Position numbers and translations under genes: made by a program. The notes beneath the pieces were generated by a model. The model did not search any database. It had not been told where the DNA came from and saw only the letters and a list, made by a program, of their open reading frames with translations. Below, piece by piece: positions 31,475 through 55,488 of a stretch of 64,000 nt of DNA; the first letter of the stretch is position 1; every line of letters begins with the position of its first letter. Source of the DNA: Streptomyces sp. Q6 (GTDB lineage Bacteria > Actinomycetota > Actinomycetes > Streptomycetales > Streptomycetaceae); contig NZ_CP146022.1 in assembly GCF_036967205.1 (NCBI RefSeq), forward strand, positions 4,526,001 to 4,590,000, given 5' to 3'.

Positions 31475-32631
31475 ATGGGGGACCGCGGCATGGCCGCACA
31501 CCCACAGCACTCACCCGAGGCGTGGCCCTCGGCCCGCACCGGCCGCACGGGCGGGTGGCCGGGCCTGCGCACCGCCCTCTCGGCCGTGTCCTGGCTGACC
31601 AGTCCGCTCTCCCCGGACGACTATCTCGGCCTGTTCGATCCCCTGTGGTCGGCGCGGCACCCCGCGGGCCGGGTCACCGCGGTGCGCCCGGAGGGCCCGG
31701 GGCGGCCACCCTCGCCATCCGCCCCGGCCGCGGCGCGCACGGCCACCTGGCAGGCCAGTATCTGCCGCTCGGCGTCGAGATCGACGGCGCATGGCACTGG
31801 CGTACGTACTCGATCACCTCGCCGGCTTCCGCCGGGCCCGCCGACGAGGTCACCGTCACCGTGAAGGCCCGTCCCGACGGCCGGGTCTCCCCGCACCTGG
31901 TGCACCGGACCCCACCCGGCACCGTGCTCCGACTCGGGCCGCCGCAGGGCGAGTTCACCCTGCCGCGCCCCCTGCCGGACGCGCTGCTGTTCGTGACGGC
32001 GGGCAGCGGGATCACGCCCGTCATGGGGATGCTGCGCACCCTGGCCGGAAACGGCGCCACCGCCCCCGACAGCCTGCTCCTGCACAGTGCGCCGTCCCCG
32101 GACGAGTGCCTCTTCCGTACCGAACTGGCCGAGATGCGGGACCGATTGCCCTGGCTGCGCGTCCGGCTGATCCATACGCGTACGGACGGACGGCTCACCC
32201 CGGACCGGATCGCCGCCCTCTGCCCGGACTGGCAGCGCCGGGACGCCTACGTGTGCGGCCCGAGCGGTCTCCTGGACGCGGCGGAGCGCCGGTGGGAGGC
32301 CGCGGGGGTGCGCGACCGGCTGCGCCTCGAACGGTTCCACCTGGCGCCGGTGCTGCCGGTCGCCACCGATGCCGTCGGCGGGCGGGTGCGCTTCACGCGC
32401 GAGGGCCCGTGGGTGGACGCGGCTGCCGGTACGCCGCTGCTCGCGGTGGGGGAGTCGGCGGGGCTGCCGATGCCGTACGGGTGCCGGCGCGGCCTCTGCC
32501 TCGGCTGCCTCGTACCGCTCGTCGACGGCCGGGTGCGCGATCTGCGCACCGGTGAACTGCGCGGGGAACCGGGCGAGTTGATCCAGACCTGCGTCAACGG
32601 CGCCGCGGGCCCGCTCGTCCTCGACGTGTGA
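31475..32631 (+). pseudogene. ferredoxin reductase (FNR plus 2Fe-2S), apparent frameshift
   Basis: The N-terminus (LRTALSAVSWLTSPLSPDDYLGLFDPLW) is in one frame. From AATLAIRPGRGAHGHLAGQYLPLGV on, all domains are in another: FAD site WRTYSITSP, NAD site FVTAGSGITPVMGML, and a C-terminal plant-type 2Fe-2S domain with Cys in YGCRRGLCLGCL and TCVNG. One extra G in the GGGG run at 31699-31702 restores about 385 residues. This matches the oxidoreductase that feeds electrons to acyl-CoA desaturases (Rv3230c type), and a desaturase gene follows. Confidence 0.85.
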
Positions 32632-32876
32632 GCCCGGACCCGGGGTACCCGGCCGGTGGCATCCGCCCCCGCACCCCGGGGCACCCGACCTCCGACCCCG
32701 CGACCTGCGATCCCGCGGGCGCTCCCACGACCCCGTGTTCTCACGGCTCCGCGTTCTCACGACCCCGTGCCGGCGCGACCCCGTGTCTTCACGATCCGCG
32801 TTCTCCCGACCCCGTGTTCTCGCGACCCCGCGTCCCGCGTTCCCAAGATCCCGTGTTCCCGAGGAGACTTCCATGA
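32628..32876 (+). other. low-complexity bridge frame between reductase and desaturase
   Basis: A GTG at 32628 overlaps the reductase stop (GTGA), and the frame stays open for 82 codons to a TGA that overlaps the desaturase ATG (ATGA at 32873). Product is Pro/Arg/Ser-rich and repetitive (DPVFSRPR-like units), because the DNA from about 32715 consists of degenerate 15-16 nt repeats of the CGACCCCGTGTTCTC type. It spans the gap exactly. Translation is unproven; no family resemblance. Confidence 0.35.
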
Positions 32877-34051
32877 CCGTCACCGGCACGACCACCGTCA
32901 CCGCATCCCGTGACCCGTCGCCGGAGGTGTCCGGCAGCGACGCCGCCGACGCGCTCGGCCGTGAACTGGACGCGCTGCGCGCCGAGTTCATCACCGCGCG
33001 CGGCGCCGACGACGCCCGCTACATCCATACTGTGATCGCCGTGCAGCGCGGCTGCGAGGCGGGCGGCCGTCTCGCGCTCTCCGTCTCCCTCTTCCCGCCC
33101 GCCTGGCTCGCGGGCACCGGCCTGCTCTCCGTCGCCAAGATCCTGGAGAACATGGAGCTCGGCCACAACATCCTGCACGGCCAGTGGGACTGGCTCGGCG
33201 ATCCGGCGATCCACTCGACCACCTGGGAGTGGGACTTCGTCACGCCCGCCGACGCCTGGAAACGCACCCACAACCACCTGCACCACACGTACACCAACGT
33301 CGTCGGCCGCGACCGCGACCTCGGCTACACCGTCCTGCGGATGAGCCCCGACCAGCCCTGGCACCCGGTCCATCTCCTCCAGCCCCTGTACACGGCGCTG
33401 CTCGCCCCCGTCTTCGAGTGGGGCATCGCCCTGTACGACCTGGAGGCCGACGAGATGGCAGTGGGACGCAAGAGCCCGCGCGCCTTCCTCGCCGACGCGA
33501 CCGCCATGGCGGGCAAGGCGGTTCGCCAGGCATTGAAGGACTACCTGCTCTTCCCGCTGCTCTCCGGACCCAGCGCCCTGCCCTGCCTCCTCGGCAACCT
33601 GACCGCGAACAGCGCCCGCAACGTCTGGGCGCACACGGTGATCTTCTGCGGCCACTTCCCCACCGACGTGCACACCTTCACGTACACGGAGGAGCAGATC
33701 GAGGGCGAGAGCCGGGGCGACTGGTACCGGCGGCAGATCCAGGGCTCGGCGAACATCGAGGGCGGCCCGCTCCTGCACGTCCTCACCGGCAACCTCAGCC
33801 ACCAGATCGAACACCACCTCTTCCCCGACCTGCCCAGCAACCGCTACGCGCAGCTCGCCCCACGGGTCAGGGAGATCTGCGCCCGCCACGGCCTCCCGTA
33901 CGTCAGCGGGCCGCTGTGGCGGCAGTACACGTCGATGTGGAGCCGGGTGCTGCGCCACGCCCTGCCGTCACACGGCCGCCCCGGGGGCGGGGATCACGGA
34001 CGTGTCGAACGTGCCGTCGATGATGCCCCGGGCCAGGTCCGTGAGGCGTAG
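32873..34051 (+). CDS. membrane fatty acid desaturase
   Basis: 392 residues. Three histidine boxes that hold the di-iron centre: GHNILHGQ, HNHLHHTYTN and HQIEHHLFP. Hydrophobic segments lie between. Of the DesA3 acyl-CoA/lipid desaturase type, expected to work with the reductase encoded just upstream. ATG 32873 has GAGGAG at good spacing. The last 28 codons run antisense through the end of the ANTAR gene, and the sequence there (HGRVERAVDDAPG) is unlike a normal C-terminus, so the true end may be earlier if there is a base error in the G-run near 33981. Confidence 0.92.
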   Translation: MTVTGTTTVTASRDPSPEVSGSDAADALGRELDALRAEFITARGADDARYIHTVIAVQRGCEAGGRLALSVSLFPPAWLAGTGLLSVAKILENMELGHNILHGQWDWLGDPAIHSTTWEWDFVTPADAWKRTHNHLHHTYTNVVGRDRDLGYTVLRMSPDQPWHPVHLLQPLYTALLAPVFEWGIALYDLEADEMAVGRKSPRAFLADATAMAGKAVRQALKDYLLFPLLSGPSALPCLLGNLTANSARNVWAHTVIFCGHFPTDVHTFTYTEEQIEGESRGDWYRRQIQGSANIEGGPLLHVLTGNLSHQIEHHLFPDLPSNRYAQLAPRVREICARHGLPYVSGPLWRQYTSMWSRVLRHALPSHGRPGGGDHGRVERAVDDAPGQVREA

Positions 34052-34717
34052 GTGGTGGGAGCGGGCGTAGCGGCGGAACGCCTGGAACGCCTCGTCGACC
34101 GAGGTGTCCCAGCGTTCGGCCAGCACCCCCTTGACCTGCTCCAGCAGGATCCGGCTGGTGAGCGCCGAGTCCAGCTGGGCGTTCTCCACATGTGACCGCT
34201 CCAGCGTGCGCTGCTGAAGGATCGTGATGGTGGCGACGTCGGCCAGCGCCTGGGCGAGGGCGATGTCGTCGTCGTCCAGGCGGTGGTCGTCGGTCTGGAA
34301 CATGTTCAGCGCCCCCACCACCCGGTCACGGAGGCGCAGCGGGATGGCGTGCGTGACGATGACCCCCGTCCCCCGGGCCCGCGGCGTGAAGCGCGGCCAG
34401 GACGCCGCCGCCCGCTGCTCCCGGAGGTCTATGTTCGTCCGGGCCGCGCCGCTGTGGAAGCAGTCCACGCACGGGCCCTGGTCGTGCTGGAGCGCGAAGA
34501 GTTCGAGCAGCCGGGTGTGTTCGTCGGAGGCGGCGATGACCTGGAGTTCGCCGTGTGCGTCCGCGAGCAGGATGCCGGCCGCCGAGACGTCCAGGAGTTC
34601 CACGCAGCGCGTGGAGAGCCGCTGCAGCAGATCGAGGACGTCGAAGTCGTCGATGAGTGAGTCCGCGATCTCGACGAAGACTTCGGCGAGCCGCTGTTCC
34701 CGGGCCATGCTGATCAT
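33968..34717 (-). CDS. GAF-ANTAR domain regulator
   Basis: 249 residues. GAF sensor domain at about residues 15-160 (LLDVSAAGILLADAHGELQVIAAS, HDQGPCVDC, AIPLRLRDRVVGALNMF). C-terminal ANTAR RNA-binding domain at 180-240 (NAQLDSALTSRILLEQVKGVLAERWDTSVDEAFQAFRRYARSHHLRLTDLARGI). ANTAR proteins bind tandem stem-loops in leaders and prevent termination. The start overlaps the upstream GAF-ANTAR gene by 4 nt, so the pair is coupled. Its 3' end overlaps the convergent desaturase gene by 84 bp. Confidence 0.9.
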   Translation of the reverse strand: MISMAREQRLAEVFVEIADSLIDDFDVLDLLQRLSTRCVELLDVSAAGILLADAHGELQVIAASDEHTRLLELFALQHDQGPCVDCFHSGAARTNIDLREQRAAASWPRFTPRARGTGVIVTHAIPLRLRDRVVGALNMFQTDDHRLDDDDIALAQALADVATITILQQRTLERSHVENAQLDSALTSRILLEQVKGVLAERWDTSVDEAFQAFRRYARSHHLRLTDLARGIIDGTFDTSVIPAPGAAV

Positions 34718-35481
34718 CCCTCTCCACCGGCGGGCGAATGAGGCCCGTATCCATCGTCGTCCATTACGGCGTCGAAGCGCAGCCGTCGGGCCACGACGTC
34801 CTCCGCCACGTCCCCGAGGGGGCGGTCACTGCTGTAGGCGTGAGCGCGCAGTCGCACCAGGGCCTCTTCCAACGTGGCGCCGAGCTGGACGCTGATCATG
34901 CCCGTCGCCTGGTGCACGACGGCCCGGTGCAGCCCTGTGGTGGGCCACAGCGGTCCGTCCGAGCCCGTGCCGTTCGGCCCGGCCGGGCCCCGCCGGTTGA
35001 GCAGGGTCGCGGTCAGGGCGGCGGCCAGCGTGTTCGCGTCGGCGAGCTGACGGTCGCTGAGGGCGCGCTTCCCGTCGCACAACAGGGTCAGCGTGCCGAT
35101 CCGGGCCCCGCCCAGGGCGAGCGGGAAGCAGCACACGCCGTGCACGCCGAGGCGCTGGGCGGCGGGCAGCAGCGCGGGCCACCGCTCGGGCCTGACGCGT
35201 TCGAGATCCGGCTCCAGTACGGGGACGCCGAACCGGACCGCGTCGGGGCCGGGCCCCTCGCCGAGGGTGAACTGCAACTCGTCGAACCGCAGGCTCAGCT
35301 CGGGGTGGCACCACAGGGGCTCCGGTGCCGGGGTGGCGTGCGGGCCCACGGGTGTCCGGGCGAACACGGAGACGGCCACGCCGACCACGTCCAGCGCGCG
35401 GGTGCCGGCCCGCGCGGGATCGACGCCGCTTCCCGGGCGCAGGGACCGCAGTACCTCGGCCATGCCGTCGCTGGTCGTCAC
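34714..35481 (-). CDS. GAF-ANTAR domain regulator, second copy
   Basis: 255 residues, GTG start at 35481. GAF-like region at residues 25-155 (FTLGEGPGPDAVRFGVPVLEPDL, FPLALGGARIGTLTLL) followed by an ANTAR domain (GLHRAVVHQATGMISVQLGATLEEALVRLRAHAYSSDRPLGDVAEDVV). Coupled to the next GAF-ANTAR gene by ATGA overlap. The two are diverged paralogues, possibly acting as a heterodimer. RNA targets are not evident in this window. Confidence 0.88.
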   Translation of the reverse strand: MTTSDGMAEVLRSLRPGSGVDPARAGTRALDVVGVAVSVFARTPVGPHATPAPEPLWCHPELSLRFDELQFTLGEGPGPDAVRFGVPVLEPDLERVRPERWPALLPAAQRLGVHGVCCFPLALGGARIGTLTLLCDGKRALSDRQLADANTLAAALTATLLNRRGPAGPNGTGSDGPLWPTTGLHRAVVHQATGMISVQLGATLEEALVRLRAHAYSSDRPLGDVAEDVVARRLRFDAVMDDDGYGPHSPAGGEG

Positions 35482-35546
35482 CGGTCTCCGTTCCGCCGGG
35501 TCCGGGATTCACCCGCACGGGGTGCCGACCGGTTCCCGGCGTACAT
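35478..35546 (-). other. 22-codon bridge frame between STAS and GAF-ANTAR genes
   Basis: The ATG at 35546 shares its A with the STAS stop codon (TAATG), and the frame ends at a TGA that overlaps the GTG start of the GAF-ANTAR gene (GTGA, 35478-35481). Product is short and Arg/Gly-rich (MYAGNRSAPRAGESRTRRN). The gap is spanned exactly. Whether it is translated is unknown. Confidence 0.3.
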
Positions 35547-36037
35547 TACGCGGCTCCGCGCGGTTCGGGGCGGGAGAGGGGCGCGGGCCCGGAGACGGTC
35601 CCCCGCCACGCGTCCCGGGCGCACGCGTACCGCGGGAACCGGGCGGCCAGGCCGCCGGCCCGCAGGACCAGGGCGGTCGCCGACGCGGTGTAGACGACGC
35701 GGGCCCAGCCGTGGCGCGCCCGGCAGTCCTCCCACGCCTCGCACAGCGGCCCGAGAAGGCTCCCGTCCGCGAACGTCACCGCGCTGAGGTCGACGACGAT
35801 ACGGAGCCGCCCTGACCCGGCGCGGGCCCGGTGCAGGGCGTCCGCCAGGGGAGCCATGGTCGTGAGGTCCAGCTCGCCGTGGCCCCGGACGGTGCGGCAG
35901 GCGTCGGCCGGGCCGGAGCGCGGCAGGTGGCCGGTGGGGTCGGGACGCGGCAGGTGGCCGATGAGGTCGGGCAGGTCGGGCAGGTCGGTGGGGTCGGGCA
36001 GGTCGGTGGGGTCGGGCAGGTCGGAGGGAGAACTCAT
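35546..36037 (-). CDS. STAS-domain protein
   Basis: 163 residues. The N-terminal 25 residues are a repeat (DLPDPT units) encoded by tandem 18-nt DNA repeats at about 35955-36030. Then a STAS fold: RTVRGHGELDLTTMAPLADALHRA, RIVVDLSAVTFADGSLLGPL, ARHGWARVVYTASATALVLRAGGL. The usual D-S-S/T phosphoacceptor is replaced by F-A-D-G-S, where the Ser may serve. STAS proteins of this size are usually anti-anti-sigma factors. No partner kinase lies next to it. A shorter start inside the repeat cannot be excluded. Confidence 0.75.
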   Translation of the reverse strand: MSSPSDLPDPTDLPDPTDLPDLPDLIGHLPRPDPTGHLPRSGPADACRTVRGHGELDLTTMAPLADALHRARAGSGRLRIVVDLSAVTFADGSLLGPLCEAWEDCRARHGWARVVYTASATALVLRAGGLAARFPRYACARDAWRGTVSGPAPLSRPEPRGAA

Positions 36038-36336
36038 CTGCCCCGCCTCCTCAGAGAGGGTGGCACGTCAGCTGCGCAGGGCCTCTGTTGCGCGGAACAC
36101 ACTGCACGGAGAGGGCCGGGGCTGGGGCGACCGTGTCTCGACGGTACTCGGCACCGGGTCGGAAGGTGCCGATCACGGGGAATCGGCCTCGGGGAGTGGG
36201 GCGCGGGAGCGCACCGGGGGCGTGCGCGTCGTGAGTGAACGCCCGGTCGTACGGACCGGCGGTGGCCGGGCGGCCGTTGGGCCGGATGGACCTGTCCGGC
36301 GCGGCGCCGGAGCCCCGCGCCTCGGATGCTCGCCGT
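36038..36336. other. 299-bp divergent intergenic region
   Basis: Between the divergent STAS and acyltransferase genes; expected to hold both promoters. I see no gene and no clear -35/-10 pair. A run of in-frame codons before 36337 lacks coding character. Confidence 0.35.
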
Positions 36337-37791: not shown

Positions 37792-37802
37792 CGCGACCGG
37801 GG

Positions 37803-38588
37803 TCACCAGAACTGTGCGAGCACTCCCTCCTTGAACGGCGCGGGGGACACGGACAGCTCACCCGAGAACGGCCGGTTCAGCGTCAGCACGAGCACCAGGC
37901 TCACCCCGATGAGCCCGGCGACGCAGGTGACGAACATCAGCTGGGCCCGCCGGCTCTCGATGCCGTAGAGGAAGGTCAGCGGGAGCATGACGACCGCGCC
38001 GCCGTACACGAGGACGGTGAGCAGCATCGGCAGCTCCTGCTCGGCGTTGGCGAGACGGGTGCGGCGCGCGGCGGCGAGATCGGCGAGCGTCGCGACCGAC
38101 TGCTCGTAGTACGCCTGCTCGGCCGCGGTCTTCGGTTCGTACGTCTGGTACACGGTGTACAGCTCGGTGATCTCGGCGTTGGTCAGCTCCGGATCGGGCC
38201 GGCCCTCGCGCATCGGGGTCCACTGCTTGTCGACGACGGCGTGCACGTACGCGCCCATGGCCGCGGTCACCCGGTCCCGCTGCTCCGGCGGGAACGCGGC
38301 GGCCTCCCGCAGGACTTCCGCGGTCTGACTCGCCTCGGCGGCGACGTTCTCCTCGGCCGCCCCGAGCGCTTCCCACTCGGCCACGACGACGAACGCCAGG
38401 ATGATGCCGTAGATCGCGGCATACATCCCGAGCACGAGCCCGATCATCTCGTTGTACGCACCGTCCGCGATCTTCGGCATCCACCGCCTGGCCATCACAC
38501 ACCCCGCCACGGCGACGAACACGGCACCGCCGCAGATGAGCAGGCACAACGCGAACGTACTGAGGTGATTGAGCAGCCAGATATCCAT
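37803..38588 (-). CDS. DUF4239 membrane protein
   Basis: 261 residues from ATG 38588 (MDIWLLNHLSTFAL). Two N-terminal helices (residues 5-30 and 48-70), a soluble helical middle of about 110 residues, and two C-terminal helices (LLTVLVYGGAVVMLPLTFLYG, LMFVTCVAGLIGVSLVLVL), the layout of the bestrophin-like DUF4239 family. Function unknown. CAAGGT 6 nt before the ATG suggests a leaderless message. Convergent with the SGNH gene, 11 bp apart. Confidence 0.85.
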   Translation of the reverse strand: MDIWLLNHLSTFALCLLICGGAVFVAVAGCVMARRWMPKIADGAYNEMIGLVLGMYAAIYGIILAFVVVAEWEALGAAEENVAAEASQTAEVLREAAAFPPEQRDRVTAAMGAYVHAVVDKQWTPMREGRPDPELTNAEITELYTVYQTYEPKTAAEQAYYEQSVATLADLAAARRTRLANAEQELPMLLTVLVYGGAVVMLPLTFLYGIESRRAQLMFVTCVAGLIGVSLVLVLTLNRPFSGELSVSPAPFKEGVLAQFW

Positions 38589-39455: not shown

Positions 39456-39465
39456 GTACTACATG
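39453..39465. promoter_or_regulatory. 13-bp palindrome over the antitoxin start
   Basis: CATGTACTACATG is a perfect palindrome (one central base) whose end is the antitoxin ATG on the minus strand. In an AT-rich context (TACTACTT follows). Toxin-antitoxin complexes usually bind palindromes here. Confidence 0.5.
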
Positions 39466-39862: not shown

Positions 39863-39875
39863 GCTGTTTTGGCTG

Positions 39876-45441: not shown

Positions 45442-46749
45442 TCACTTTGCTCCGGCCGGAGTGCCACCGGCCGCGAGCCGCTCTCCGATGTCCCTGAGGC
45501 CTGCCAGGTCGTGCACGTCGCCGGGCAGGGCCGCGATCTCGGTCACGGCCACTTCGGGGTGCAGCGCGGTGAAGCGGTCACGCGTGCGCTGTTCGCGCGC
45601 GACCACCTGCATGCGCTCGGCGTGCAGGCGCAACAGGCCTGCCGTCAGTTGTTCGATGCTGGGATCCGCCTGCGCGGAATCCGCGGGTTCGGCGGAATCG
45701 GACGGGACCTCCGCTGGGGCGGGGGAGCCTGAAGCGGGAGCGGTCCGGGGATCGGCCTCGGGAGAGGTACGAACCTCTTCCTTCCCGGTCGCCTGATCCA
45801 CAATGCGACGCTCGTCAAGATTTTCTGCGGCGGCCAGGGCGCGCTCGGCCGACAGGCGTCCCGCGCCGCTGCCGTGCACCCGGTTCAGCACGAGACCGGC
45901 CAGCGGCATCCGCTCCGCGGCCAGCCGCTCCACGAAGTACGCGGCCTCGCGCAGCGCGTCCCGCTCGGGCGCGGCGACCACGAGGAACGACGTGCCGGGC
46001 GCCTGAAGCAGCTTGTACGTGGCGTCGGCGCGGGTACGGAAGCCGCCGAACGTCGTGTCCATCGCGGCCACGAACGTCTGCACGTCGCGCAGGAGTTGAC
46101 CGCCGAGCAGCTTGCCGAGCGTGCCGGTCATCATCGACATCCCGACGTTCAGGAACTTCATGCCCGCGCGCCCGCCGATCTTCGCCGGGGCCATCAGCAG
46201 CCGGATCAGCTTCCCGTCGAGGAAGGAGCCGAGCCGCTGCGGCGCGTCGAGGAAGTCGAGCGCGGAGCGCGACGGCGGGGTGTCGACGACGATCAGGTCC
46301 CACTCGTCGCGGGCGCGCAGCTGCCCCAGCTTCTCCATCGCCATGTACTCCTGCGTGCCCGCGAAGCCCGCCGAGAGCGACTGGTAGAAGGGGTTGGCGA
46401 GGATGGTCCGCGCGCGCTCCTCGTCCGCGTGCGCCTCGACGACCTCGTCGAAGGTGCGCTTCATGTCGAGCATCATCGCGTGCAGCTCACCACCGGCCGC
46501 GTCGTCGATGCCCTTCACCCGGCGCGGGGTGTTGTCCAGCGAGTCGATGCCCATCGACTGCGCGAGCCTGCGGGCCGGGTCGATGGTCAGGACGACGACC
46601 TTGCGGCCGCGCTCGGCGGCCCGCAGCCCGAGCGCCGCGGCGGTGGTGGTCTTGCCGACGCCGCCCGCGCCGCAGCACACCACGATGCGGGTGGCCGGGT
46701 CGTCGAGCAGCGGGTCGATGTCGAGCGTGTCGGAAGGGTTCAGCGTCAT
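45442..46749 (-). CDS. ArsA-like P-loop ATPase (second of pair)
   Basis: 435 residues. Walker A with the deviant lysine (CCGAGGVGKTTTAAALG), switch I (TIDPARRLAQSMG), and Walker B-like IVVDTPPSRSALDFL. An insert after residue 320 (EEVRTSPEADPRTAP to DSAQADPS) is Pro/Ser/Glu-rich. Counterpart of Rv3680, one of two unequal ATPases thought to form a heteromer linked to redox or glycerol stress. Encoded downstream of its partner, separated by a 38-codon bridge frame. Confidence 0.92.
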   Translation of the reverse strand: MTLNPSDTLDIDPLLDDPATRIVVCCGAGGVGKTTTAAALGLRAAERGRKVVVLTIDPARRLAQSMGIDSLDNTPRRVKGIDDAAGGELHAMMLDMKRTFDEVVEAHADEERARTILANPFYQSLSAGFAGTQEYMAMEKLGQLRARDEWDLIVVDTPPSRSALDFLDAPQRLGSFLDGKLIRLLMAPAKIGGRAGMKFLNVGMSMMTGTLGKLLGGQLLRDVQTFVAAMDTTFGGFRTRADATYKLLQAPGTSFLVVAAPERDALREAAYFVERLAAERMPLAGLVLNRVHGSGAGRLSAERALAAAENLDERRIVDQATGKEEVRTSPEADPRTAPASGSPAPAEVPSDSAEPADSAQADPSIEQLTAGLLRLHAERMQVVAREQRTRDRFTALHPEVAVTEIAALPGDVHDLAGLRDIGERLAAGGTPAGAK

Positions 46750-46862
46750 CGATGGCGTCCTGTCATGCGCTCAGTCGTGCGCTCGGTCATGCGCTTGGTC
46801 GTGCGCTTGGTCGTGCGCTCGGCCATGAGATCCGTCATGCGATCCGGCAGGCGTTCCGTCAT
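46746..46862 (-). other. 38-codon tetrapeptide-repeat bridge frame between ATPase genes
   Basis: The ATG at 46862 overlaps the stop of the first ATPase (ATGA), and the TGA at 46748-46746 overlaps the ATG of the second (ATGA). Between them about eight copies of a 12-nt unit (CGCACGACCAAG, CGCATGACCGAG and variants) encode a basic repeat of the form M/T-T-E/K-R. The frame exactly fills the gap. Copy number changes keep it open since the unit is a multiple of 3. It may serve only to couple translation, or make a basic peptide. No homologue recognised. Confidence 0.4.
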
Positions 46863-47833
46863 GGTTGTGACCCCTGGATCCCTTGCTGTCGCAGTTCCTC
46901 GGCGAGCGTGTAGAGGCCCGCGAGGTCCAACCCCTCGGTGAGCAACGGCAGTTCGTGCAGCGGCAGGCCCGCCTCGGTGAGCAGTTCACGCTGCGCCCGC
47001 TCCAGCGCGTACCGCTCCGCGTACTCCCCGGCCTGGGTGAGCAGCGGTCCTACGAGCCGCTTCGCGCTGCCGAGCCCGGCGGCGGTCAGTGCCTCGGTGA
47101 CCGCGGGCCGCACGGAACGGTCCGCGCTCAGTGCCAGGGCGGGTTCCCCGAGGAGCGCGGGCCGCACCATGTTCACCATGATCCGTCCCACCGGGAGCTT
47201 CGCGGCGCGCAGTTCGGCGACCCCGTCGAGGGTCTCCTGCACCGGCATCTCCTCCAGGAGCGTCACCAAGTGCACCGCGGTCTCACGGGACTTGAGGACG
47301 CGCATCACGGCCTGGGCCTGGTTGTGTATCGGCCCGATCTTCGCGAGCCCGGCCACCTCGTCGTTCACGTTCAGGAAGCGCGTGATGCGCCCGGTCGGCG
47401 GCGCGTCCATCACGACGTGGTCGTACGCGTAGACGCCCCGCTTGTCCTTGCGGCGTACCGCCTCGCACGCCTTGCCCGTCAGAAGTACGTCCCGCAGGCC
47501 CGGCGCGATGGTGGTCGCGAAGTCGATGGCGCCCAGTTTCTTCAGGGCGCGGCCCGCGCCGCCGAGCTTGTAGAACATCTGGAGGTAGTCCAGCAGCGCC
47601 AGTTCGGGGTCGATGGCGAGGGCGTACACCTCCCCGCCGCCGGGCGCGACGGCGATCTTCCGTTCTTCGTAGGGAAGTGCCTCGGTCTCAAAGAGCTGTG
47701 CGATGCCCTGTCTGCCCTCCACCTCCACTAGGAGCGTGCGCTTGCCCTCCGTCGCGAGGGCGAGCGCGAGTGCGGCGGCGACCGTGGTCTTTCCGGTACC
47801 GCCCTTGCCGCTGACGACCTGGAGCCTGCTCAC
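46859..47833 (-). CDS. ArsA-like P-loop ATPase (first of pair)
   Basis: 324 residues from GTG 47833. Walker A VVSGKGGTGKTTVAAALALAL, switch VEVEGRQGIAQLFE, and DHVVMDAPPTGRITRFLN. Counterpart of Rv3679. It lies at the head of the ATPase pair and is convergent with wblA. The DUF4177 gene starts 85 bp away on the opposite strand, so promoters for both lie in that short gap. Confidence 0.92.
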   Translation of the reverse strand: MSRLQVVSGKGGTGKTTVAAALALALATEGKRTLLVEVEGRQGIAQLFETEALPYEERKIAVAPGGGEVYALAIDPELALLDYLQMFYKLGGAGRALKKLGAIDFATTIAPGLRDVLLTGKACEAVRRKDKRGVYAYDHVVMDAPPTGRITRFLNVNDEVAGLAKIGPIHNQAQAVMRVLKSRETAVHLVTLLEEMPVQETLDGVAELRAAKLPVGRIMVNMVRPALLGEPALALSADRSVRPAVTEALTAAGLGSAKRLVGPLLTQAGEYAERYALERAQRELLTEAGLPLHELPLLTEGLDLAGLYTLAEELRQQGIQGSQP

Positions 47834-47918
47834 GTATTCGAGCCTAACCAGTCGGCCGCCCGATCACGCAGGAGCCTCCGGAACGCCGCCCCTCAGTTCG
47901 GCGGCTACAGTCGGCCCC

Positions 47919-48547: not shown

Positions 48548-48609
48548 GCCGCTGACCCGGGTGACGGGTGGGTCTCGAACATCCGCCCGTCACCGGTTAG
48601 CCTCCGGCC

Positions 48610-49482
48610 ATGGCAAACGGGCAGTGGTACCCACCCGAGTGGCCGGAACGCATCCGGGCCCTCGCCGACGGCACGCTCACGCCCGCGACGCCGAGGCGCG
48701 CCGCGACCGTGATGCTGCTCAGGGACGTCCTCCCGGGCGGCATCGAGGTGCACATGCTCCGCAGACGTACGTCGATGGCGTTCGCGGCCGGTGCGTACGC
48801 GTATCCCGGCGGCGGCGTGGACCCCCGTGACGACGACCGGCAGGTCCGCTGGGCCGGACCGTCGCGCGCGCGGTGGGGCGAGCGGCTCGGCGTCCCGGAG
48901 AAGGAGGCCCAGGCGATCGTCTGCGCCGCCGTCCGCGAGACGTTCGAGGAGGCGGGCGTGCTGCTCGCCGGGCCCACCCCGGACACCGTCGTCGAGGACA
49001 CCACCGGCGACGACTGGGCCGCCGACCGGCAGGCGCTGATCGGCCGCGACCTGTCCTTCGCCGAGTTCCTGGAGCGCCGCGGGCTCGTGCTGCGCTCGGA
49101 CCTGCTGGGCGCCTGGGCCCGCTGGATCACCCCGGAGTTCGAGCCGCGCCGCTACGACACCTGGTTCTTCGCCGCCGCGCTCCCGGCCGGGCAGCGCACC
49201 AGCGACGACTCCTCCGAGGCCGACCGCACCGTGTGGATCGGCCCCCGAAGCGCCGCGTCGGCGTACGACCGGGGCGAGTTGACGATGATGCCGCCCACCA
49301 TCGCGACGCTGCGCACCCTGGCGGCGTACGAGGACGTGAGCGGGGCGCTCGCCGGTTCGACGGAGCGCGACCTCACCCCCGTACTGGCACAGGCGCGCCT
49401 GGAGGACGGCGAGTTGGTGCTGTCCTGGCCGGGGCACGACGAGTTCACCAAGCACATTCCCACGGGGGGAACCCAGCGATGA
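48610..49482 (+). CDS. NUDIX hydrolase, NUDT19-like
   Basis: 290 residues. Starts with RAATVMLLRDVLPGGIEVHMLRR, YPGGGVDPRDDD, and a NUDIX box AAVRETFEEAGVLL. A long insert between the first sheet and the box and the C-terminal RWITPEFEPRRYDTWFF segment resemble the NUDT19/CoA-related group. TAGCCT lies 6 nt before the ATG and suggests a leaderless message. Its stop overlaps the metallo-beta-lactamase gene. Confidence 0.9.
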   Translation: MANGQWYPPEWPERIRALADGTLTPATPRRAATVMLLRDVLPGGIEVHMLRRRTSMAFAAGAYAYPGGGVDPRDDDRQVRWAGPSRARWGERLGVPEKEAQAIVCAAVRETFEEAGVLLAGPTPDTVVEDTTGDDWAADRQALIGRDLSFAEFLERRGLVLRSDLLGAWARWITPEFEPRRYDTWFFAAALPAGQRTSDDSSEADRTVWIGPRSAASAYDRGELTMMPPTIATLRTLAAYEDVSGALAGSTERDLTPVLAQARLEDGELVLSWPGHDEFTKHIPTGGTQR

Positions 49483-50309
49483 CCGAAGCCGCCGCCCTGC
49501 CCGGACAGCCGCGCGGCGGGGTGCTCTCCGGCCCCGCCACCGCCCGCGCCGTCAACGTCCTCGCGCCCAACGCGTCCGCGATGACCCTCGACGGCACCAA
49601 CACCTGGATCGTCGCCGAGCCCGACAGCGACCTCGCCGTCGTCATCGACCCGGGGCCGCTGGACGACGCCCACCTGAAGAACGTGATCGACGTCGCCGCG
49701 AAGGCCGGCCGCCGCGTCGCGCTCACCCTGCTCACGCACGGCCACCCCGACCACGCCGAAGGCGCGGGCCGGTTCGCCGAGCTGACCGGCACGAAGGTGC
49801 GCGGGCTCGACCCGGCGCTGCGCCTGGGCGACGAGGGGCTCGCGGCCGGTGACGTCGTCACGACGGGCGGCCTGGAGCTGCGCGTCGTCCCGACCCCCGG
49901 CCACACCGCCGACTCGCTCTGCTTCCATCTCCCCGCCGACCGAGCGGTACTGACCGGCGACACGATCCTCGGCCGGGGCACGACGGTCGTCGCGCACCCC
50001 GACGGCCGGCTCGGCGACTACCTGGACACGCTGCGCCGGCTGCGCTCGCTGACCGTCGACGACGGCGTGCACACGGTGCTGCCCGGCCACGGCCCCGTGC
50101 TCGACGACGCCCAGGGCGCCGTCGAGTTCTACCTCGCCCACCGCGCCCACCGCCTCGCCCAGGTCGAGACGGCGGTCGAGAACGGGTACGCGCGGGCGGC
50201 CGACGTCGTCGCCCACGTGTACGCGGACGTGGACCGGACGCTGTGGCCGGCGGCCGAGCTGTCCGTCCTGGCCCAGCTCGACTACCTGCGCGAACACGGC
50301 CTGATCTAG
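49479..50309 (+). CDS. metallo-beta-lactamase fold hydrolase
   Basis: 276 residues. Zinc motif THGHPDHAEG, later His in PTPGHTADSL, Asp in LTGDTILG, and VLPGHGPVL near the end, followed by a small helical (LACTB2-like) domain HRLAQVETAVENGYARAADVVAHVY. Related LACTB2 proteins cut single-stranded RNA; here the role is unknown. Overlaps the NUDIX gene by 4 nt. Counterpart of Rv3677c. Its stop overlaps that of the convergent sigma gene. Confidence 0.92.
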   Translation: MTEAAALPGQPRGGVLSGPATARAVNVLAPNASAMTLDGTNTWIVAEPDSDLAVVIDPGPLDDAHLKNVIDVAAKAGRRVALTLLTHGHPDHAEGAGRFAELTGTKVRGLDPALRLGDEGLAAGDVVTTGGLELRVVPTPGHTADSLCFHLPADRAVLTGDTILGRGTTVVAHPDGRLGDYLDTLRRLRSLTVDDGVHTVLPGHGPVLDDAQGAVEFYLAHRAHRLAQVETAVENGYARAADVVAHVYADVDRTLWPAAELSVLAQLDYLREHGLI

Positions 50310-51214
50310 ACCTCGTCGGGGTCCCGCGGCCACTCGATGCCGAGGGTGGCCAGGCGGGCGGGGTCGGCGATGATGTCGACCTCGACGACCCTGCCCCCGC
50401 GGAACGTGAAGGCGAGGACCGAGTAGACCTCGCCGCCCGGCGCCGCCACGATGCCCATGCCGTCGCCGACGAACGCCGGGTGCGACACCGGGGCCGTACG
50501 CCCGTACAGCGCGGCCTGACCGGCCACCTCCAGGGCGCCGCGGACCAGCTTCGACGCCGTGCCCGGACCCGCGTCGACGCGCAGCAGCACGTCCGGGTCG
50601 AGGAGTTCGAGCAGCGCCTCGAAGTCACCGGCGCGGGTGGCGGCCAGCCAGGCCTCGACGACCACGCGCTGCCGGGCGATGTCGGTGTCGGGCGGCACGG
50701 CGGCCCCGGAGACCCGGCGCCGCGCCCTGCTCGCCAGCTGCCGGGTCGCCGCAGGGGTGCGCTCCACGATCGGCGCGAGCTCCTCGAACGGCACGGCGAA
50801 CATGTCGTGCAGCACGAACGCGAGCCGCTCGGCCGGGGCGAGGGTGTCCAGGACGACGAGCAGCGCGAGCCCGACCGAGTCCGCCAGTTCGGCCTCGTGG
50901 ACGGGGTCGGCGGTCCTGACCACCGGGTCGGGCACGCGCGTCTCCGCGGAGCCCGCCTCACCTGCCTCCAGGGGGTCCTCACGGCGCGACGCGCGCGTCC
51001 GCAGCATGTCCAGGCAGATCCGCCCGACGACGGTCGTCAGCCAGCCGCTCAGGTTCCGCACGTCGTCGGCGCCGTCCCGCTGCAACCGCAGCCAGCTCTC
51101 CTGGACCGCGTCCTCGGCCTCGCTGAACGATCCCAGCATCCGGTACGCCACGGCCCGCAGCCGGCCGCGCTCCGTCTCGAAGCGCGCCGCCAGATCGGTG
51201 TCGGACTGCACCAT
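50306..51214 (-). CDS. ECF41-type sigma factor with C-terminal SnoaL-like domain
   Basis: 302 residues. Region 2 (RLRAVAYRMLGSFSEAEDAVQESWLRLQR, SGWLTTVVGRICLDMLR) and region 4 (DTLAPAERLAFVLHDMFAVPFEELAPIVERTPAATRQLASRARRRV) followed by a 110-residue SnoaL_2 domain (RQRVVVEAWLAATRAGDFEALLELLDPDVLLRVD) that in this family regulates the sigma factor in place of an anti-sigma protein. The usual oxidoreductase/carboxymuconolactone partner gene is not adjacent. ATG 51214. Confidence 0.9.
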   Translation of the reverse strand: MVQSDTDLAARFETERGRLRAVAYRMLGSFSEAEDAVQESWLRLQRDGADDVRNLSGWLTTVVGRICLDMLRTRASRREDPLEAGEAGSAETRVPDPVVRTADPVHEAELADSVGLALLVVLDTLAPAERLAFVLHDMFAVPFEELAPIVERTPAATRQLASRARRRVSGAAVPPDTDIARQRVVVEAWLAATRAGDFEALLELLDPDVLLRVDAGPGTASKLVRGALEVAGQAALYGRTAPVSHPAFVGDGMGIVAAPGGEVYSVLAFTFRGGRVVEVDIIADPARLATLGIEWPRDPDEV

Positions 51215-51299
51215 GAGTGATTTCCCCCTGTGTCGGTTCCACGTTGCCTACGGTGCCTGCGTCGTCTTCGGTGCCCACGTCGCTTCGTGCGGCCGGTGA

Positions 51300-52106
51300 T
51301 CAGGGCCGTGGGGCCTTGACGCCGTGCTCGCGCGCGTACGCGTCGGCGAGCCACGGCCCGATCTCCTCGGTGTACGTGCGCAGGGCCGCGAGGTCCCCCG
51401 TCGGCTCGCGCGCGGCGTCGGCCGCGTCCCGCATCGCCCCCGCCCACCGCGGGTGGTACCCGCCGAAGACCTCCGCCATCTCGCCCAGGTCGCTCGTCCA
51501 GCCGTTCCAGCGGGGCATGACCAGCGTGAAGCCCGTACGGACGAGATGGCGCGCCATGCCGCGCTGGAGGCCCCGCAGATCGGCGGGAGCGGCCTCGGCG
51601 ATCCGCTCGCGCCAGCGCGGCAGGAGCAGGGCCAGGTCGCCGTTGGTCTCGCGGGCGAGCAGCGAGGTGGGCCGGTAGCGGGGCAGGTACTCGGCGAGGT
51701 CCTCGCCGAGCAGCGGGGTGCACAGGCAGGCCACGAACCAGCCCAGGTCGTACGTCTCCAGGTCGCTCAGGAGCCGCGCCCGGCTGAAGAGCAGCGTGCC
51801 CGCGCCGTCGATCTGCGTGAACTCCTTGTCCAGGGACTCGTCGAGCACGCGCGCTTCCGCCCGGTCGGCGTCGGTGGGCTCGTGGCGCAGGGCGAGCAGC
51901 AGGTCGAGGTCGGAGCGGCCGGGGCGGGCGGTGCCGCGCGGCACGGACCCGTACAGGTACGCGCTCGTCATCCGGGCCCCGAACACGTCGAGCAGCCGGT
52001 CACGCGCGGCGGCCACGACGGGGCGGAACGGGTCCTCGACACGGGCCAGGGAGCCCTCGCGCGCGAGGTACCCCTGGGCGTCGAGTCCGCGGGTCAGGTC
52101 GGCCAT
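51300..52106 (-). CDS. nucleotidyltransferase, aminoglycoside adenylyltransferase-like
   Basis: 268 residues. Pol-beta-type signature AYLYGSVPRGTARPGRSDLDLLLAL (G-S ... D-x-D) at about residues 50-75, with a third acidic residue in TQIDGAG, then a helical C-terminal domain (FVACLCTPLLGEDL, RWRERIAEA). Resembles DUF4111-type and aminoglycoside nucleotidyltransferases, but substrate is unknown and resistance should not be assumed. Lies 85 bp upstream of the ECF41 gene on the same strand. Confidence 0.75.
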   Translation of the reverse strand: MADLTRGLDAQGYLAREGSLARVEDPFRPVVAAARDRLLDVFGARMTSAYLYGSVPRGTARPGRSDLDLLLALRHEPTDADRAEARVLDESLDKEFTQIDGAGTLLFSRARLLSDLETYDLGWFVACLCTPLLGEDLAEYLPRYRPTSLLARETNGDLALLLPRWRERIAEAAPADLRGLQRGMARHLVRTGFTLVMPRWNGWTSDLGEMAEVFGGYHPRWAGAMRDAADAAREPTGDLAALRTYTEEIGPWLADAYAREHGVKAPRP

Positions 52107-52203
52107 GAGCCAACTGTGCAGGGAAGCGGCGGGGACGGCACGTCATTTCCGCCTGCCCGGACCCGGCACGGCGGGATGCGCGGGAAGACGGGGGAGTACG
52201 AGA

Positions 52204-52236
52204 AGGGGCCCCGCCGCGCGATGCGGTGGGACCCCT
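52204..52236 (-). terminator. hairpin downstream of crp
   Basis: A 14-bp stem with two G-U pairs (52204-52217 with 52223-52236), 100 nt after the crp stop on the minus strand. It lies before the nucleotidyltransferase start and separates the two genes. Confidence 0.55.
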
Positions 52237-52240
52237 GCTC

Positions 52241-52280
52241 GTCGAGCCGTGTCGAGCCGTGTCGAGCCGTGTCGAGCCGT
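52241..52280. repeat. 10-nt tandem repeat, four copies
   Basis: GTCGAGCCGT occurs four times in perfect tandem in the 3' region of crp, beside its terminator. Not a multiple of 3 and not in a gene. A simple slippage repeat. Confidence 0.85.
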
Positions 52281-52335
52281 GTACGGCGCTGTGCCGCCGG
52301 GTGGCTCTCGTGGTCGCCACGGGCCCGCTACCGGG

Positions 52336-53010
52336 TCAGCGCGAACGCTTCGCGAGGCGCTCCACGTCCAGGAGGATCACGGCGCGGGCCTCCAGGCGCA
52401 GCCAGCCGCGGCCCGCGAAGTCGGCGAGGGCCTTGTTCACGGTCTCGCGGGAGGCGCCGACCAGCTGGGCCAGCTCTTCCTGCGTGAGGTCGTGCACGAC
52501 GTGGATGCCCTCCTCGGACTGCACGCCGAAGCGGCGCGACAGGTCGAGCAGCGCGCGGGCGACACGGCCCGGCACGTCGGAGAAGACCAGGTCGGACATC
52601 TGGTCGTTCGTCTTGCGCAGTCGCCGGGCGACGGCGCGCAGCAGGGCGGCGGCCACCTCCGGGCGTGCGTTCAGCCAGGGCTGGAGGTCGCCGTGGCCGA
52701 GGCCGAGCAGCTTCACCTCGGTCAGCGCGGAGGCGGTGGCGGTACGCGGGCCCGGGTCGAACAGCGACAGCTCGCCGATCAGCTCTCCGGGGCCGAGCAC
52801 GGCCAGCATGTTCTCCCGGCCGTCGGGGGAGGTGCGGTGGAGCTTCACCTTGCCCTCGGTGACCACGTACAAGCGGTCTCCCGGGTCGCCCTCGTGGAAC
52901 AGGGCGTCACCGCGCGCGAGGGTCACCTCACTCATGGAGGCGCGGAGCTCCGCGGCCTGCTCGTCATCGAGCGCCGCGAAGAGCGGGGCGCGCCGCAGAA
53001 CGTCGTCCAC
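52336..53010 (-). CDS. crp: Crp/Fnr-family global regulator
   Basis: 224 residues from GTG 53010 (VDDVLRRAPLFAALDDEQ). Cyclic-nucleotide-binding domain (GDALFHEGDPGDRLYVVTEGKVKLHR, GELIGELSLFDPGPRTATASA) at residues 12-125, dimer helix, and C-terminal HTH (TQEELAQLVGASRETVNKALADFAGRGWL). This is the Streptomyces Crp needed for spore germination and acting on many antibiotic clusters. A motif matching the reported Crp site lies 98-111 nt upstream. An earlier in-frame start would add an Arg-rich stretch absent from the family. Confidence 0.96.
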   Translation of the reverse strand: MDDVLRRAPLFAALDDEQAAELRASMSEVTLARGDALFHEGDPGDRLYVVTEGKVKLHRTSPDGRENMLAVLGPGELIGELSLFDPGPRTATASALTEVKLLGLGHGDLQPWLNARPEVAAALLRAVARRLRKTNDQMSDLVFSDVPGRVARALLDLSRRFGVQSEEGIHVVHDLTQEELAQLVGASRETVNKALADFAGRGWLRLEARAVILLDVERLAKRSR

Positions 53011-53107
53011 GAGTTTCTCTCCTATGTCGCCTGCACTGTGGGGGGACTGCCGGGAAACGCCTCGGAAAGGTATTTCCCGTTCCCCATTTTGCCGGACGGT
53101 CCAAACA

Positions 53108-53121
53108 GTGTGATCAGTCAC
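53108..53121. promoter_or_regulatory. candidate Crp-binding site
   Basis: GTGTGATCAGTCAC fits GTG-N6-GNCAC, the consensus I recall for Streptomyces Crp, with a palindromic TGATCA centre. Location between the divergent crp and nth genes suggests autoregulation. Confidence 0.45.
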
Positions 53122-53232
53122 TCGGACACAAGTCTGCCGCACCCGCGTCACAAGCCGAGGGGGAGGGGGCCAATCGGGGGCCGATCCGACTGCTCCGGGG
53201 CGGATGTCGGTGCCGGGCTCTAGGCTGGCCGG

Positions 53233-53373
53233 GTGTTCAAAAAGCCGGTGAGAGCGCAGGCGGAGGAGGCCGAGACGATGTCAGCCGACCATGATTCCGC
53301 TGTGGGCGAACAGGGCACGTGGGTGCCCCGGCTGTGCGCCGTTCCGGGGTCCGTACAGGGGAAGGCCGCGTAG
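53233..53373 (+). CDS. possible 46-residue protein upstream of nth
   Basis: GTG 53233 opens a 46-codon frame (VFKKPVRAQAEEAETMSADHD) that stops 3 nt before the nth ATG. TAGGCT lies 6 nt before the GTG, so a leaderless transcript could begin on it. The composition is unremarkable and I recognise no family. It could be a leader peptide that couples translation to nth, or chance. Confidence 0.35.
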   Translation: MFKKPVRAQAEEAETMSADHDSAVGEQGTWVPRLCAVPGSVQGKAA

Positions 53374-53376
53374 TCG

Positions 53377-54462
53377 ATGCCCGCGAAGAAGAAGACGCCA
53401 GCCGTCGTGAAGACCTCAGCCGCGAAGACGACGACACCGGCGACCAAGACACCGGCGACGAAGACACCGGCGACCAAGACACCGGCCGCGAAGACGACCG
53501 AGGCGACCAGGACGACCAAGGCGACCAGGACGACGAAGACGCCGGCCACCAAGACACCGGCCACCAAGACACCGGCCACCAAGACGTCAGCCGCGAAGGC
53601 GCCTGCCGCGAAGGCGCCTGCCGCGAAGGCGTCTGTCGCCAAGACGGCGAAGGCCCCCGCCGCCCAGCGCGTCGCCGCCAAGCCCGAGTCCCGTACCGCC
53701 CTCGTCCGCCGGGCGCGGAAGATCAACCGGGAGCTCGCGGAGGCGTACCCGTACGCGCACCCGGAGCTGGATTTCGAGAATCCCTTCCAGCTCCTCGTCG
53801 CCACGGTGATGTCCGCCCAGACGACCGACCTCAGGGTCAATCAGACGACGCCGGGCCTGTTCGCCAAGTACCCGACCCCCGAGGACCTCGCCGCAGCGAA
53901 CCCGGAGGAGGTCGAGGAGCTGATCAGGCCCACCGGGTTCTTCCGCGCCAAGACGCGGTCGATCATGGGCCTGGCCAAGGCCCTGACGGAGGAGTTCGGC
54001 GGCGAGGTCCCCGGCCGCCTCGAAGACCTGGTCAAGCTGCCGGGCGTGGGCCGCAAGACCGCGTTCGTCGTGCTCGGGAACGCGTTCGGACGGCCCGGCA
54101 TCACCGTCGACACCCACTTCGGCCGCCTCGTGCGCCGCTGGAAGTGGACGGACGAGACGGACCCGGACAAGGTCGAGAAGGCGATCGGCGAGCTGTTCCC
54201 GAAGAGCGAGTGGACCCAGCTCAGCCACCACGTGATCTTCCACGGCCGCCGCATCTGCCACGCCCGCAAACCGGCCTGCGGCGCCTGCCCCATCGCCCCG
54301 CTCTGCCCGGCGTACGGCGAGGGGGAGACGGACCCCGAGAAGGCGAAGAAGCTCCTCAAGTACGAGAAGGGCGGCTTCCCCGGCCAGCGCCTCAACCCCC
54401 CGCAGTCGTACCTGGACGCGGGCGGTGTCCCGGCCCCGCCCCTGGGCGGCACGATCGGGTGA
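53377..54462 (+). CDS. nth: endonuclease III with a long Lys/Ala/Thr repeat tail
   Basis: 361 residues. Residues 1-105 are a histone H1-like low-complexity tail of (A)TKTPAT and AAKAPA units. The enzyme begins near residue 107 ([25 protein letters not shown]). Helix-hairpin-helix with catalytic Lys, [13 protein letters not shown]; catalytic Asp, [11 protein letters not shown]; 4Fe-4S cysteines [21 protein letters not shown] glycosylase/AP lyase that removes oxidised pyrimidines. The core alone is the normal length for the family, so the tail is an addition that probably binds DNA non-specifically. Counterpart of Rv3674c. Confidence 0.93.
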
Positions 54463-54527
54463 CGGGGGAACGAACGGGGGACGGTCGGGCGTTGGGCCCA
54501 TCACGACAGGGGACGGGACGACGATGA
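54459..54527 (+). other. 22-codon bridge frame between nth and the NUDIX gene
   Basis: A GTG at 54459 overlaps the nth stop (GTGA), and the TGA at 54525-54527 overlaps the next ATG (ATGA). Product is Gly/Arg/Thr-rich ([18 protein letters not shown]). It spans the gap exactly. Translation unproven. Confidence 0.35.
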
Positions 54528-55291
54528 AGCACGTGAGCGAGATCGGCAGCGATATCAGCGGGTTCGACGGCGGTACCGGTGACCAGGGCGACGCCCACGG
54601 CGGTGCGGGAGCCCCCGGGATCTCGGACATCACCCTGAGCACGGACGGCCTGCCCGGCTGGCTCGACCCCGTCGCCCACGCCGCCACCACGATCCGCGGC
54701 GAGCAGCTCAGCCGCTTCCTGCCGCCCGAGGACGGCGCGGGCCGCCAGTCCGCGGTCCTGATCCTCTTCGGCGAGGGCGAGCGCGGCCCCGAGCTGCTGC
54801 TCATGGAGCGCGCGGGATCGCTGAGATCGCACGCGGGCCAGCCCTCGTTCCCCGGCGGCGCCCTCGACCCGGAGGACGGCGACCCGCGCACGGAGGGCCC
54901 GCTGCGGGCCGCGCTGCGGGAGGCCTGGGAGGAGACGGGCCTCGACCCGAGCGGCGTCCAGCTCTTCGGGGCGCTGCCCAAGCTGTACATCCCGGTGAGC
55001 GGATTTGTCGTGTCGCCCGTACTGGGATGGTGGCGGGTGCCGACACCCGTCGCGGCGGTGGACCCGGCGGAGACGGCCCGCGTCTTCACGGTCCCCGTGG
55101 CGGATCTCACGGACCCGGCGAACCGGGCGACGACGATCCATCCGAGCGGCCACAAAGGCCCCGCGTTCCTGGTGGAATCGGCGCTGGTGTGGGGGTTCAC
55201 GGCCGGAGTGATCGACCGGCTGCTGCATTTCGCGGGCTGGGAGAGGCCCTGGGACCGAGCGAAGACGGTCCCACTCGACTGGCGCTCATGA
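54524..55291 (+). CDS. CoA-pyrophosphatase-like NUDIX hydrolase
   Basis: 255 residues from ATG 54524. QSAVLILFGEGERGPELLLMERA, then the CoA-specific LRSHAGQPSFPGGALDPEDGD and the NUDIX box PLRAALREAWEETGLDP. The UPF0035 motif before the box (LR-S-H-A/P-G-Q-x-x-F-P-G-G) marks the CoA diphosphatase group. The N-terminal 40 residues are Gly/Asp-rich. Lies between nth and marP as in mycobacteria (Rv3672c). Confidence 0.92.
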   Translation: MKHVSEIGSDISGFDGGTGDQGDAHGGAGAPGISDITLSTDGLPGWLDPVAHAATTIRGEQLSRFLPPEDGAGRQSAVLILFGEGERGPELLLMERAGSLRSHAGQPSFPGGALDPEDGDPRTEGPLRAALREAWEETGLDPSGVQLFGALPKLYIPVSGFVVSPVLGWWRVPTPVAAVDPAETARVFTVPVADLTDPANRATTIHPSGHKGPAFLVESALVWGFTAGVIDRLLHFAGWERPWDRAKTVPLDWRS

Positions 55292-55488
55292 CAGGGTGCA
55301 GCAAGACACAGGGCAACACCACGTACCGCGGCGCGACCCGCGGCGGCACGAGCGAGACCAGCAGGACGCGGAGCAGACCGACGCGACGCGGCACGACCCC
55401 GACCGGCACCACACAAGGCAGTACGGCGCACAGCGGCACGACGCTACGCGGCGAGATACAAGGCAGCGAGATACAAGGCGAGGCATGA
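55288..55488 (+). other. low-complexity frame between NUDIX and marP genes
   Basis: The ATG at 55288 overlaps the NUDIX stop (ATGA) and opens 66 codons of Thr/Gly/Arg/Ser-rich sequence (e.g. GTTPTGTTQGSTAHSGTTLRG), ending with a 15-nt duplication (GAGATACAAGGC units) and a TGA 4 nt before the marP GTG. Looks like a bridge frame that has drifted slightly. Alternatively plain intergenic repeat DNA. Confidence 0.35.

Follow-up and report, generated by a model that had tools for sequence, protein, structure and literature searches.

The closest precedent for the elements described here is the group of mycobacterial interspersed repetitive units (MIRUs), pieces of DNA at a start codon in which an open reading frame (ORF) is coupled to the next gene by -4 spacing and which, according to the accessible part of the source, are thought to soften the impact of insertion (PMC12548453). 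Short ORFs before or between genes can also promote the translation of the next gene, as described in the accessible parts of two papers for ribosome-delivering upstream ORFs (uORFs) and for mgtQ (PMC8092293, PMC12548453). Here, we consider the gaps between co-directional genes in a stretch of 64,000 nucleotides from Streptomyces sp. Q6 (GCF_036967205.1), referred to as the window, which corresponds to positions 4,526,001-4,590,000 of the larger contig NZ_CP146022.1 in a genome of 8.95 Mb with a GC content of about 0.71. A preliminary description of this DNA listed six short frames which start on the stop codon of the upstream gene, four of them ending on the start codon of the downstream gene. 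We propose, with a probability of about 0.78, that two of the four, at 46746-46862 and 54459-54527, are bridge ORFs, which would pass a terminating ribosome to the next start codon via two termination-reinitiation steps. Operon gaps of 50-660 nt are usually taken as uncoupled; bridges, if real, would keep the coupling alive. The literature searched, which mostly did not extend to subscription journals, yielded the MIRU precedent and ribosome delivery by uORFs, and no report of frame-conserved gaps.

Judged by the geometry of their sequence, the bridges resemble MIRUs in that they lie where a stop and a start overlap and are spaced by -4 from the next gene. However, a MIRU is one of many dispersed copies of a single repeat type (40-100 bp unit) and apparently mobile, whereas the bridges are single-copy and unrelated in sequence, partly tandem repeats that expanded in situ, 2-222 codons long and kept in frame. 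Since dispersed copies, the defining feature of MIRUs, are missing, the bridges are not MIRUs, although they would work like them; signs of mobility were not seen, and the local repeats suggest growth in place. The likeness to ordinary termination-reinitiation at ATGA or TGATG is twofold: a restart codon lies on the stop codon at both ends of a bridge, and the 4-nt overlap is the commonest state at two of the junctions discussed below (81/105 and 48/76 loci). The difference is that bridges involve two such steps in series over 13-661 nt. Finally, mgtQ, located in the Salmonella mgtC-mgtB gap, is a gap ORF aiding downstream translation, as proposed for the bridges. In the accessible part of its description, however, mgtQ is 8 aa long, acts via RNA structure and covers part of a 219-nt gap (PMC8092293), whereas the bridges run from end to end.

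Frames spanning gaps in Streptomyces

An exact bridge was defined as an ORF beginning on the upstream stop codon, open throughout and ending on the downstream start codon. Gene starts are predictions; a gene caller trained on 1.664 Mb around the window returned identical gene borders at all four exact bridges. The comparisons cover one genus, Streptomyces, and make use of three locus samples (30 loci including the window, another 30 including the window, and 80) that may overlap in species. The 80 named loci, which underlie the Nth-NUDIX, 48610/49479, control and tree counts, are among the matches listed for one window gene; all but one are Streptomyces records, the exception being labelled Actinobacteria bacterium.

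The first bridge ORF (46746-46862, minus strand) has 38 codons and leads from ATGA on the upstream stop to ATGA on the downstream start across a gap of 109 nt. Both flanking genes encode ArsA-like P-loop ATPases (upstream, 46859-47833, minus strand, Pfam ArsA_ATPase, E = 4.9e-23; downstream, 45442-46749, minus strand, Pfam ArsA_ATPase, E = 3.8e-26). Most of the bridge is made of a 12-nt tandem array with 8.5 copies (46762-46863, minus strand; Tandem Repeats Finder score 92), and most units of the array start with ATGAC or ACGAC, resembling the start of the downstream gene. The junction was compared in 110 loci including the window, five of which were dropped because the genes are not adjacent. 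The genes overlap by 4 nt in 81 of the 105 comparable loci and do not overlap in 24. An exact open bridge is present in 22 of these 24 loci, window included, with gaps of 13, 19, 37, 49, 52, 58, 67, 70, 73, 97, 109, 142, 145 and 244 nt. Of the other two loci, L243 has a gap of 132 nt in the wrong class, and no start was found in L043. The 13-nt bridge of locus L202 reads MTGRHS, and that of the window is 96 nt longer and ends with MTGRHR. Most other ArsA bridges end with RKQGMS and nonetheless differ in length; given this common end, part of their origin is shared. In the overlapping loci, the N-terminus of the downstream protein is often extended to a variable degree (by up to 71 codons), meaning that here the junction grew in the other frame that is permitted.

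The second bridge ORF (54459-54527, plus strand) has 22 codons and connects GTGA on the stop codon of the endonuclease III gene nth (53377-54462, plus strand; Pfam HhH-GPD, 9.4e-27, and EndIII_4Fe-2S, 2.8e-5) with ATGA on the start codon of a NUDIX hydrolase gene (54524-55291, plus strand; Pfam NUDIX, 1.5e-11) across a gap of 61 nt. Six of the 80 loci were dropped as not comparable. Among the remaining 74, exact open bridges of 19-222 codons are found in 58, with 29 different gap lengths between 52 and 661 nt; the others are six overlaps, seven gaps in the wrong frame, two without a restart codon and one with an early stop. For six of the 58 bridges, the downstream match already begins to align ahead of the start codon on which the bridge lands. 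When lengths are measured to a fixed anchor, an analysis from which overlapping loci and loci without the anchor are excluded (three loci of the latter kind at Nth-NUDIX), 28 of 33 distinct lengths belong to the bridge class and five lie elsewhere. A second sample of 30 loci, window included, contains 21 bridges, two overlaps and seven others, five of which lack a restart codon.

The same junction displays further features. In many species (L112-L141, L202-L281), the Nth-NUDIX gap ends, as judged by eye, in a promoter-like stretch, GGAAC followed at a distance by CGTT and then by GGGGGTGGCG before the ATG, and the variation in length is located upstream of this stretch. We assume that it resembles a promoter recognized by an ECF sigma factor. 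An ordinary promoter gap was considered for this junction and rejected after the comparison of loci showed bridges. The start of the nearby nth gene (53428-53682) carries arrays of 15-, 18- and 30-nt repeats and gives a Pfam match to Extensin_1 below the family cut-off.

Two junctions absent from the preliminary description behave in the same way and extend its proposal that intergenic expansion keeps the frame. The gene pair 48610-49482/49479-50309 (48610-50309, plus strand) overlaps by 4 nt in the window; after four of the 80 loci were dropped, the remaining 76 comprise 48 overlaps, 21 exact open bridges and seven others. Junction C1:4722296-4723725, located outside the window, is represented by 26 overlaps and four gaps (25, 37, 55 and 175 nt), and all four gaps are bridged, one of these bridges having been seen before the search. 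Six overlap junctions had been drawn at random and three of them chosen for the search; only one yielded loci, and this one was already known to bridge in a related genome, G009.

The gap lengths at four control junctions are distributed over remainders 0/1/2 modulo 3 as 34/20/16, 5/9/9, 19/24/27 and 7/11/12, indicating free variation (loci without the anchor: four at NUDIX-MarP, 10 at 52336-51300 and 34 at 40761-39991). The first of these controls, NUDIX-MarP, corresponds to another frame of the preliminary description (55288-55488, plus strand), which is not a bridge, its free end lying 4 nt short of the downstream GTG at 55493. Both ends of this gap are conserved in the 70 relatives that give the 34/20/16 counts: the stop codon is part of ATGA or GTGA in 74/74 loci and the downstream start is GTGAA in 70/74, without frame preference. 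The gap is 13 nt long in 14/74 loci (12 of them exact bridges) and 47-249 nt long elsewhere, and many of the longer gaps end, by eye, in promoter-like TATAGACG or GCGAGGC; a promoter may have taken the place of former coupling here.

The difference between bridge and control junctions is also apparent in independent sister pairs of unequal length, taken from a fast, midpoint-rooted tree of the 80 loci. The frame is kept in 30 of 39 pairs at the three bridge junctions (15/20, 9/12 and 6/7), compared with 20 of 77 at the four controls (Fisher test, P = 3.1e-7; binomial test of 30/39 against 1/3, P = 3.1e-8); pairs of equal length were excluded (16 at bridge junctions, 19 at controls). Parsimony gives 47 changes from a bridge to a bridge of another length, nine from a bridge to a broken junction, four to loss of the restart codon and three to an overlap. 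Overlaps changed into bridges 19 times, into broken junctions twice and lost the restart codon three times. In a survey of 11 junction families with at least eight loci each, two overlap throughout (80/80 and 65/65), and the five families with plain gaps contain one bridge in 224.

The signals for restarting are kept along with the frame. Stop codons that allow a restart (ATGA, GTGA or TTGA) are found in 76/76, 72/74 and 71/76 loci at the bridge junctions, versus 17/70, 1/33 and 8/64 at plain gaps. The mean energies of pairing with the anti-Shine-Dalgarno sequence are -5.3 (ArsA), -6.5 (Nth-NUDIX) and -6.3 (48610/49479) kcal/mol before the first start, and -6.2, -9.9 and -6.5 kcal/mol, respectively, before the gene start; reference values are -6.0 kcal/mol for the gene starts of the same genome and -3.1 kcal/mol for random positions. 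The bridge frame is stop-free by definition, and among the Nth-NUDIX loci with the right frame and a restart codon a single one has an early stop. The two other frames contain 27 and 20 stop codons in the Nth-NUDIX bridges (2769 codons) and 12 and three in the ArsA bridges (606 codons).

A proposed two-step path for ribosomes

At a gene pair coupled by a 4-nt stop/start overlap (ATGA or GTGA), DNA would sometimes be added between the genes, in several cases probably by tandem duplication. Where this DNA shares the frame of the downstream gene, the downstream protein would be extended at its N-terminus. Where it lies in the next frame and is free of stop codons, it would form a bridge: the ribosome would restart on the overlapping ATG or GTG, translate the filler, stop on the TGA overlapping the downstream start codon (ATGA) and restart once more on the gene itself. 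The third frame would break the coupling and is seldom kept, and later changes of length are mostly multiples of three. In this way, a bridge would swap one long gap for two overlaps. In the accessible part of a study of Haloferax volcanii and Escherichia coli gene pairs, gaps of about 20 nt nearly abolish reinitiation (PMC10666635); coupling across a long gap would accordingly require a bridge. The sequences show the structure of the bridges and that it is conserved; we infer that the 4-nt overlap is the ancestral state, that ribosomes follow the bridge path and that coupled expression is what is selected.

A broader generalization, to which we give little better than even odds, is that Streptomyces possess ORFs of a kind whose translation is under selection but whose content is not. 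Such ORFs would be ribosome conduits which couple genes across several hundred nucleotides and grow by a two-of-three-frames rule, i.e. either as a downstream extension or as a bridge. If true, this would account for some of the small, unconserved intergenic ORFs and would provide a sequence-only test for operon pairs needing coupling, in which the frame of the gap is conserved and its sequence is not.

Translation of the gap could instead be beneficial by shielding the transcript from Rho-dependent termination, with the landing on the start codon being secondary. From general knowledge, such protection against polarity would account for the lack of stop codons and suits long GC-rich gaps. For this purpose, an exact landing on the start codon would be unnecessary, but out-of-frame gaps are depleted (47 changes from one bridge to another against nine from bridge to broken). 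We regard this explanation as unlikely, though it fares best among the alternatives; since bridges end exactly on the start codon, coupling is favoured over Rho protection as the putative benefit.

Chance, peptides and other accounts

A number of observations weigh against bridging as a coupling device. Seven of the 74 Nth-NUDIX loci are in the wrong frame, and, given the promoter-like end of the gap at this junction, the NUDIX gene may be independent of coupling. At NUDIX-MarP, 20 of 74 loci qualify as exact bridges, 12 of them in the 13-nt form; since this junction combines restart codons and exact fits with the absence of a frame constraint, the two features alone are insufficient to prove a bridge. 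The sorting of junctions into three bridge junctions and four controls was post hoc, two of the three having come from the preliminary description. The GC content of the ArsA bridges climbs somewhat with codon position (0.613/0.684/0.792). No genome-wide excess of exact bridges was found, either in the 1.664 Mb of the Q6 genome or in two relatives. Orthologous gaps of different length in the 400-kb stretches of these relatives, where informative junctions are few, share the frame in 43 of 122 comparisons, which is about chance. Moreover, some junctions that overlap in other genomes have gaps whose upstream stop (CTGA or TAG) offers no restart codon, and these gaps are unbridged, namely C1:5044420 of the Q6 genome and the G009 counterparts of its C1:4443564 and C1:4689459. 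Because such gaps arise unbridged, the bridge rule is a tendency and not universal.

These genome-wide counts bear directly on the possibility that GC-rich DNA, poor in stop codons and rich in ATGA and GTGA, produces some exact fits by chance. The 1.664 Mb contain 928 same-strand gene pairs, 128 of which overlap by 4 nt. There are 629 same-strand gaps with lengths of 5-400 nt. The upstream stop carries a start-like motif in 162 of them and the downstream start a stop-like motif in 222; both motifs occur in 62 gaps versus 57 expected under independence, with length classes of 23 (bridge), 28 and 16. Exact open bridges number 15 of the 629, against a mean of 11.4 in re-paired, shuffled gaps (P = 0.17), and the 400-kb stretches of the relatives G009 and G056 are close to expectation as well (3/144 and 4/134 bridges; null values of 2.5 and 2.6). 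In the window, four of 27 gaps are exact bridges, compared with 0.94 expected (P = 0.008), a post hoc value since the window was picked for its richness; the richest 64 kb within the 1.664 Mb hold five exact bridges (clustering P = 0.021). The assertion of the preliminary description that four exact fits are too many is thus weak at the level of one genome, and holds for the window itself only post hoc. The shuffled-gap comparison which it suggested gives a genome frequency near the shuffled expectation, and by that measure its hypothesis falls; a comparison of this kind would, however, have rejected an effect limited to coupled junctions.

Two of the four exact frames are in agreement with chance. 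The first (32628-32876, plus strand) covers a low-complexity gap with repeats of about 16 nt. It has no bridge counterpart: three of the four closest orthologue pairs end in TAG, the fourth (L174) has stops inside the downstream match, and 20 less closely related pairs likewise end in TAG. The second (35478-35546, minus strand) runs from TAATG to GTGA, and in the single comparable relative (L145) the stop is TAA without a restart codon. Comparable orthologues are few in both cases, and these frames may be either chance products or recent. By contrast, the 28 of 33 Nth-NUDIX lengths in the bridge class, the sister pairs (30/39 versus 20/77) and the four bridged gaps out of four outside the window contradict chance for 46746-46862 and 54459-54527, for which we consider it improbable, whereas it is the default for 32628-32876 and 35478-35546. 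Consequently, the expansion proposal has comparative support at the former two frames and none at the latter two.

The bridges might also be small genes whose peptides matter, the other suggestion of the preliminary description. The open frames reach 222 codons, ArsA bridges often end with RKQGMS and Nth-NUDIX ones with RGWR, and, apart from the rise in GC at ArsA, a slight one is seen at 48610/49479. On the other hand, lengths span 2-222 codons, and the common peptide ends match the Shine-Dalgarno-like stretch ahead of the next gene. In equal-length bridges differing by at most 25%, substitutions at the three codon positions number 49/36/42 (12 pairs), 3/3/3 (two pairs) and 7/3/9 (three pairs), or 59/42/54 when summed, which is flat, if based on 17 pairs only; the upstream ArsA gene, taken as a coding reference, gives 818/523/3105. 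No codon-level purifying selection was detected on the bridges with these 17 disjoint pairs, few of which come from two of the three junctions. The GC content by codon position in the Nth-NUDIX bridges (0.757/0.779/0.717) is unlike that of genes (0.709/0.499/0.948), and the low second-position value typical of genes is seen in none of the three bridge sets (48610/49479, 0.766/0.736/0.803). As the substitutions lack a codon pattern, the frame is kept and the peptide shows no sign of being kept; the idea that the peptides matter finds no support, and we consider it very improbable.

Minus-one frameshifting at the upstream stop, yielding a C-terminally extended protein, would agree with the bridge frame being the -1 frame at the stop and is hardly credible, since the start codon on the stop, unneeded for a frameshift, is kept at 219 of 226 loci of the three junctions. 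Equally implausible are mobile MIRU-like repeats inserted at the overlap, which, in the accessible part of the source, have the same geometry, with an insert at the start codon and a -4 spacing that couples its ORF (PMC12548453): bridge DNA differs in sequence among junctions and species, and a dispersed element was rejected because the bridges at 32628, 46746 and 54459 each have one strong match in the genome, namely themselves.

Other frames and repeats

All six stretches of the preliminary description were verified in the sequence: their lengths are divisible by three, they are open, and they start on GTGA, TAATG, ATGA or GTGA, with four ending on the downstream ATGA or GTGA as claimed. The two free-ending frames were rejected as bridges. 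Besides 55288-55488, this concerns 11036-11104 (plus strand), in which 12-nt repeats carry GTGA and which has a free end, the next called gene starting at 11288. That gene belongs to the pair 11288-12571/12571-13635, which overlaps by 1 nt (TGATG) in the window; its counterpart in G056 has a 31-nt gap with an exact bridge of 11 codons. Elsewhere in the Q6 genome, at G000:C1:4859599-4863073, a repeat-rich gap of 343 nt contains an open exact bridge of 116 codons with CACCAGACGCACGAG-like repeats. A search of the window for RNA families at gathering thresholds found one tRNA and nothing else. Perfect tandem repeats are also present in the window at 19360-19418 (17 nt, 3.5 copies) and 52241-52282 (10 nt, 4.2 copies).

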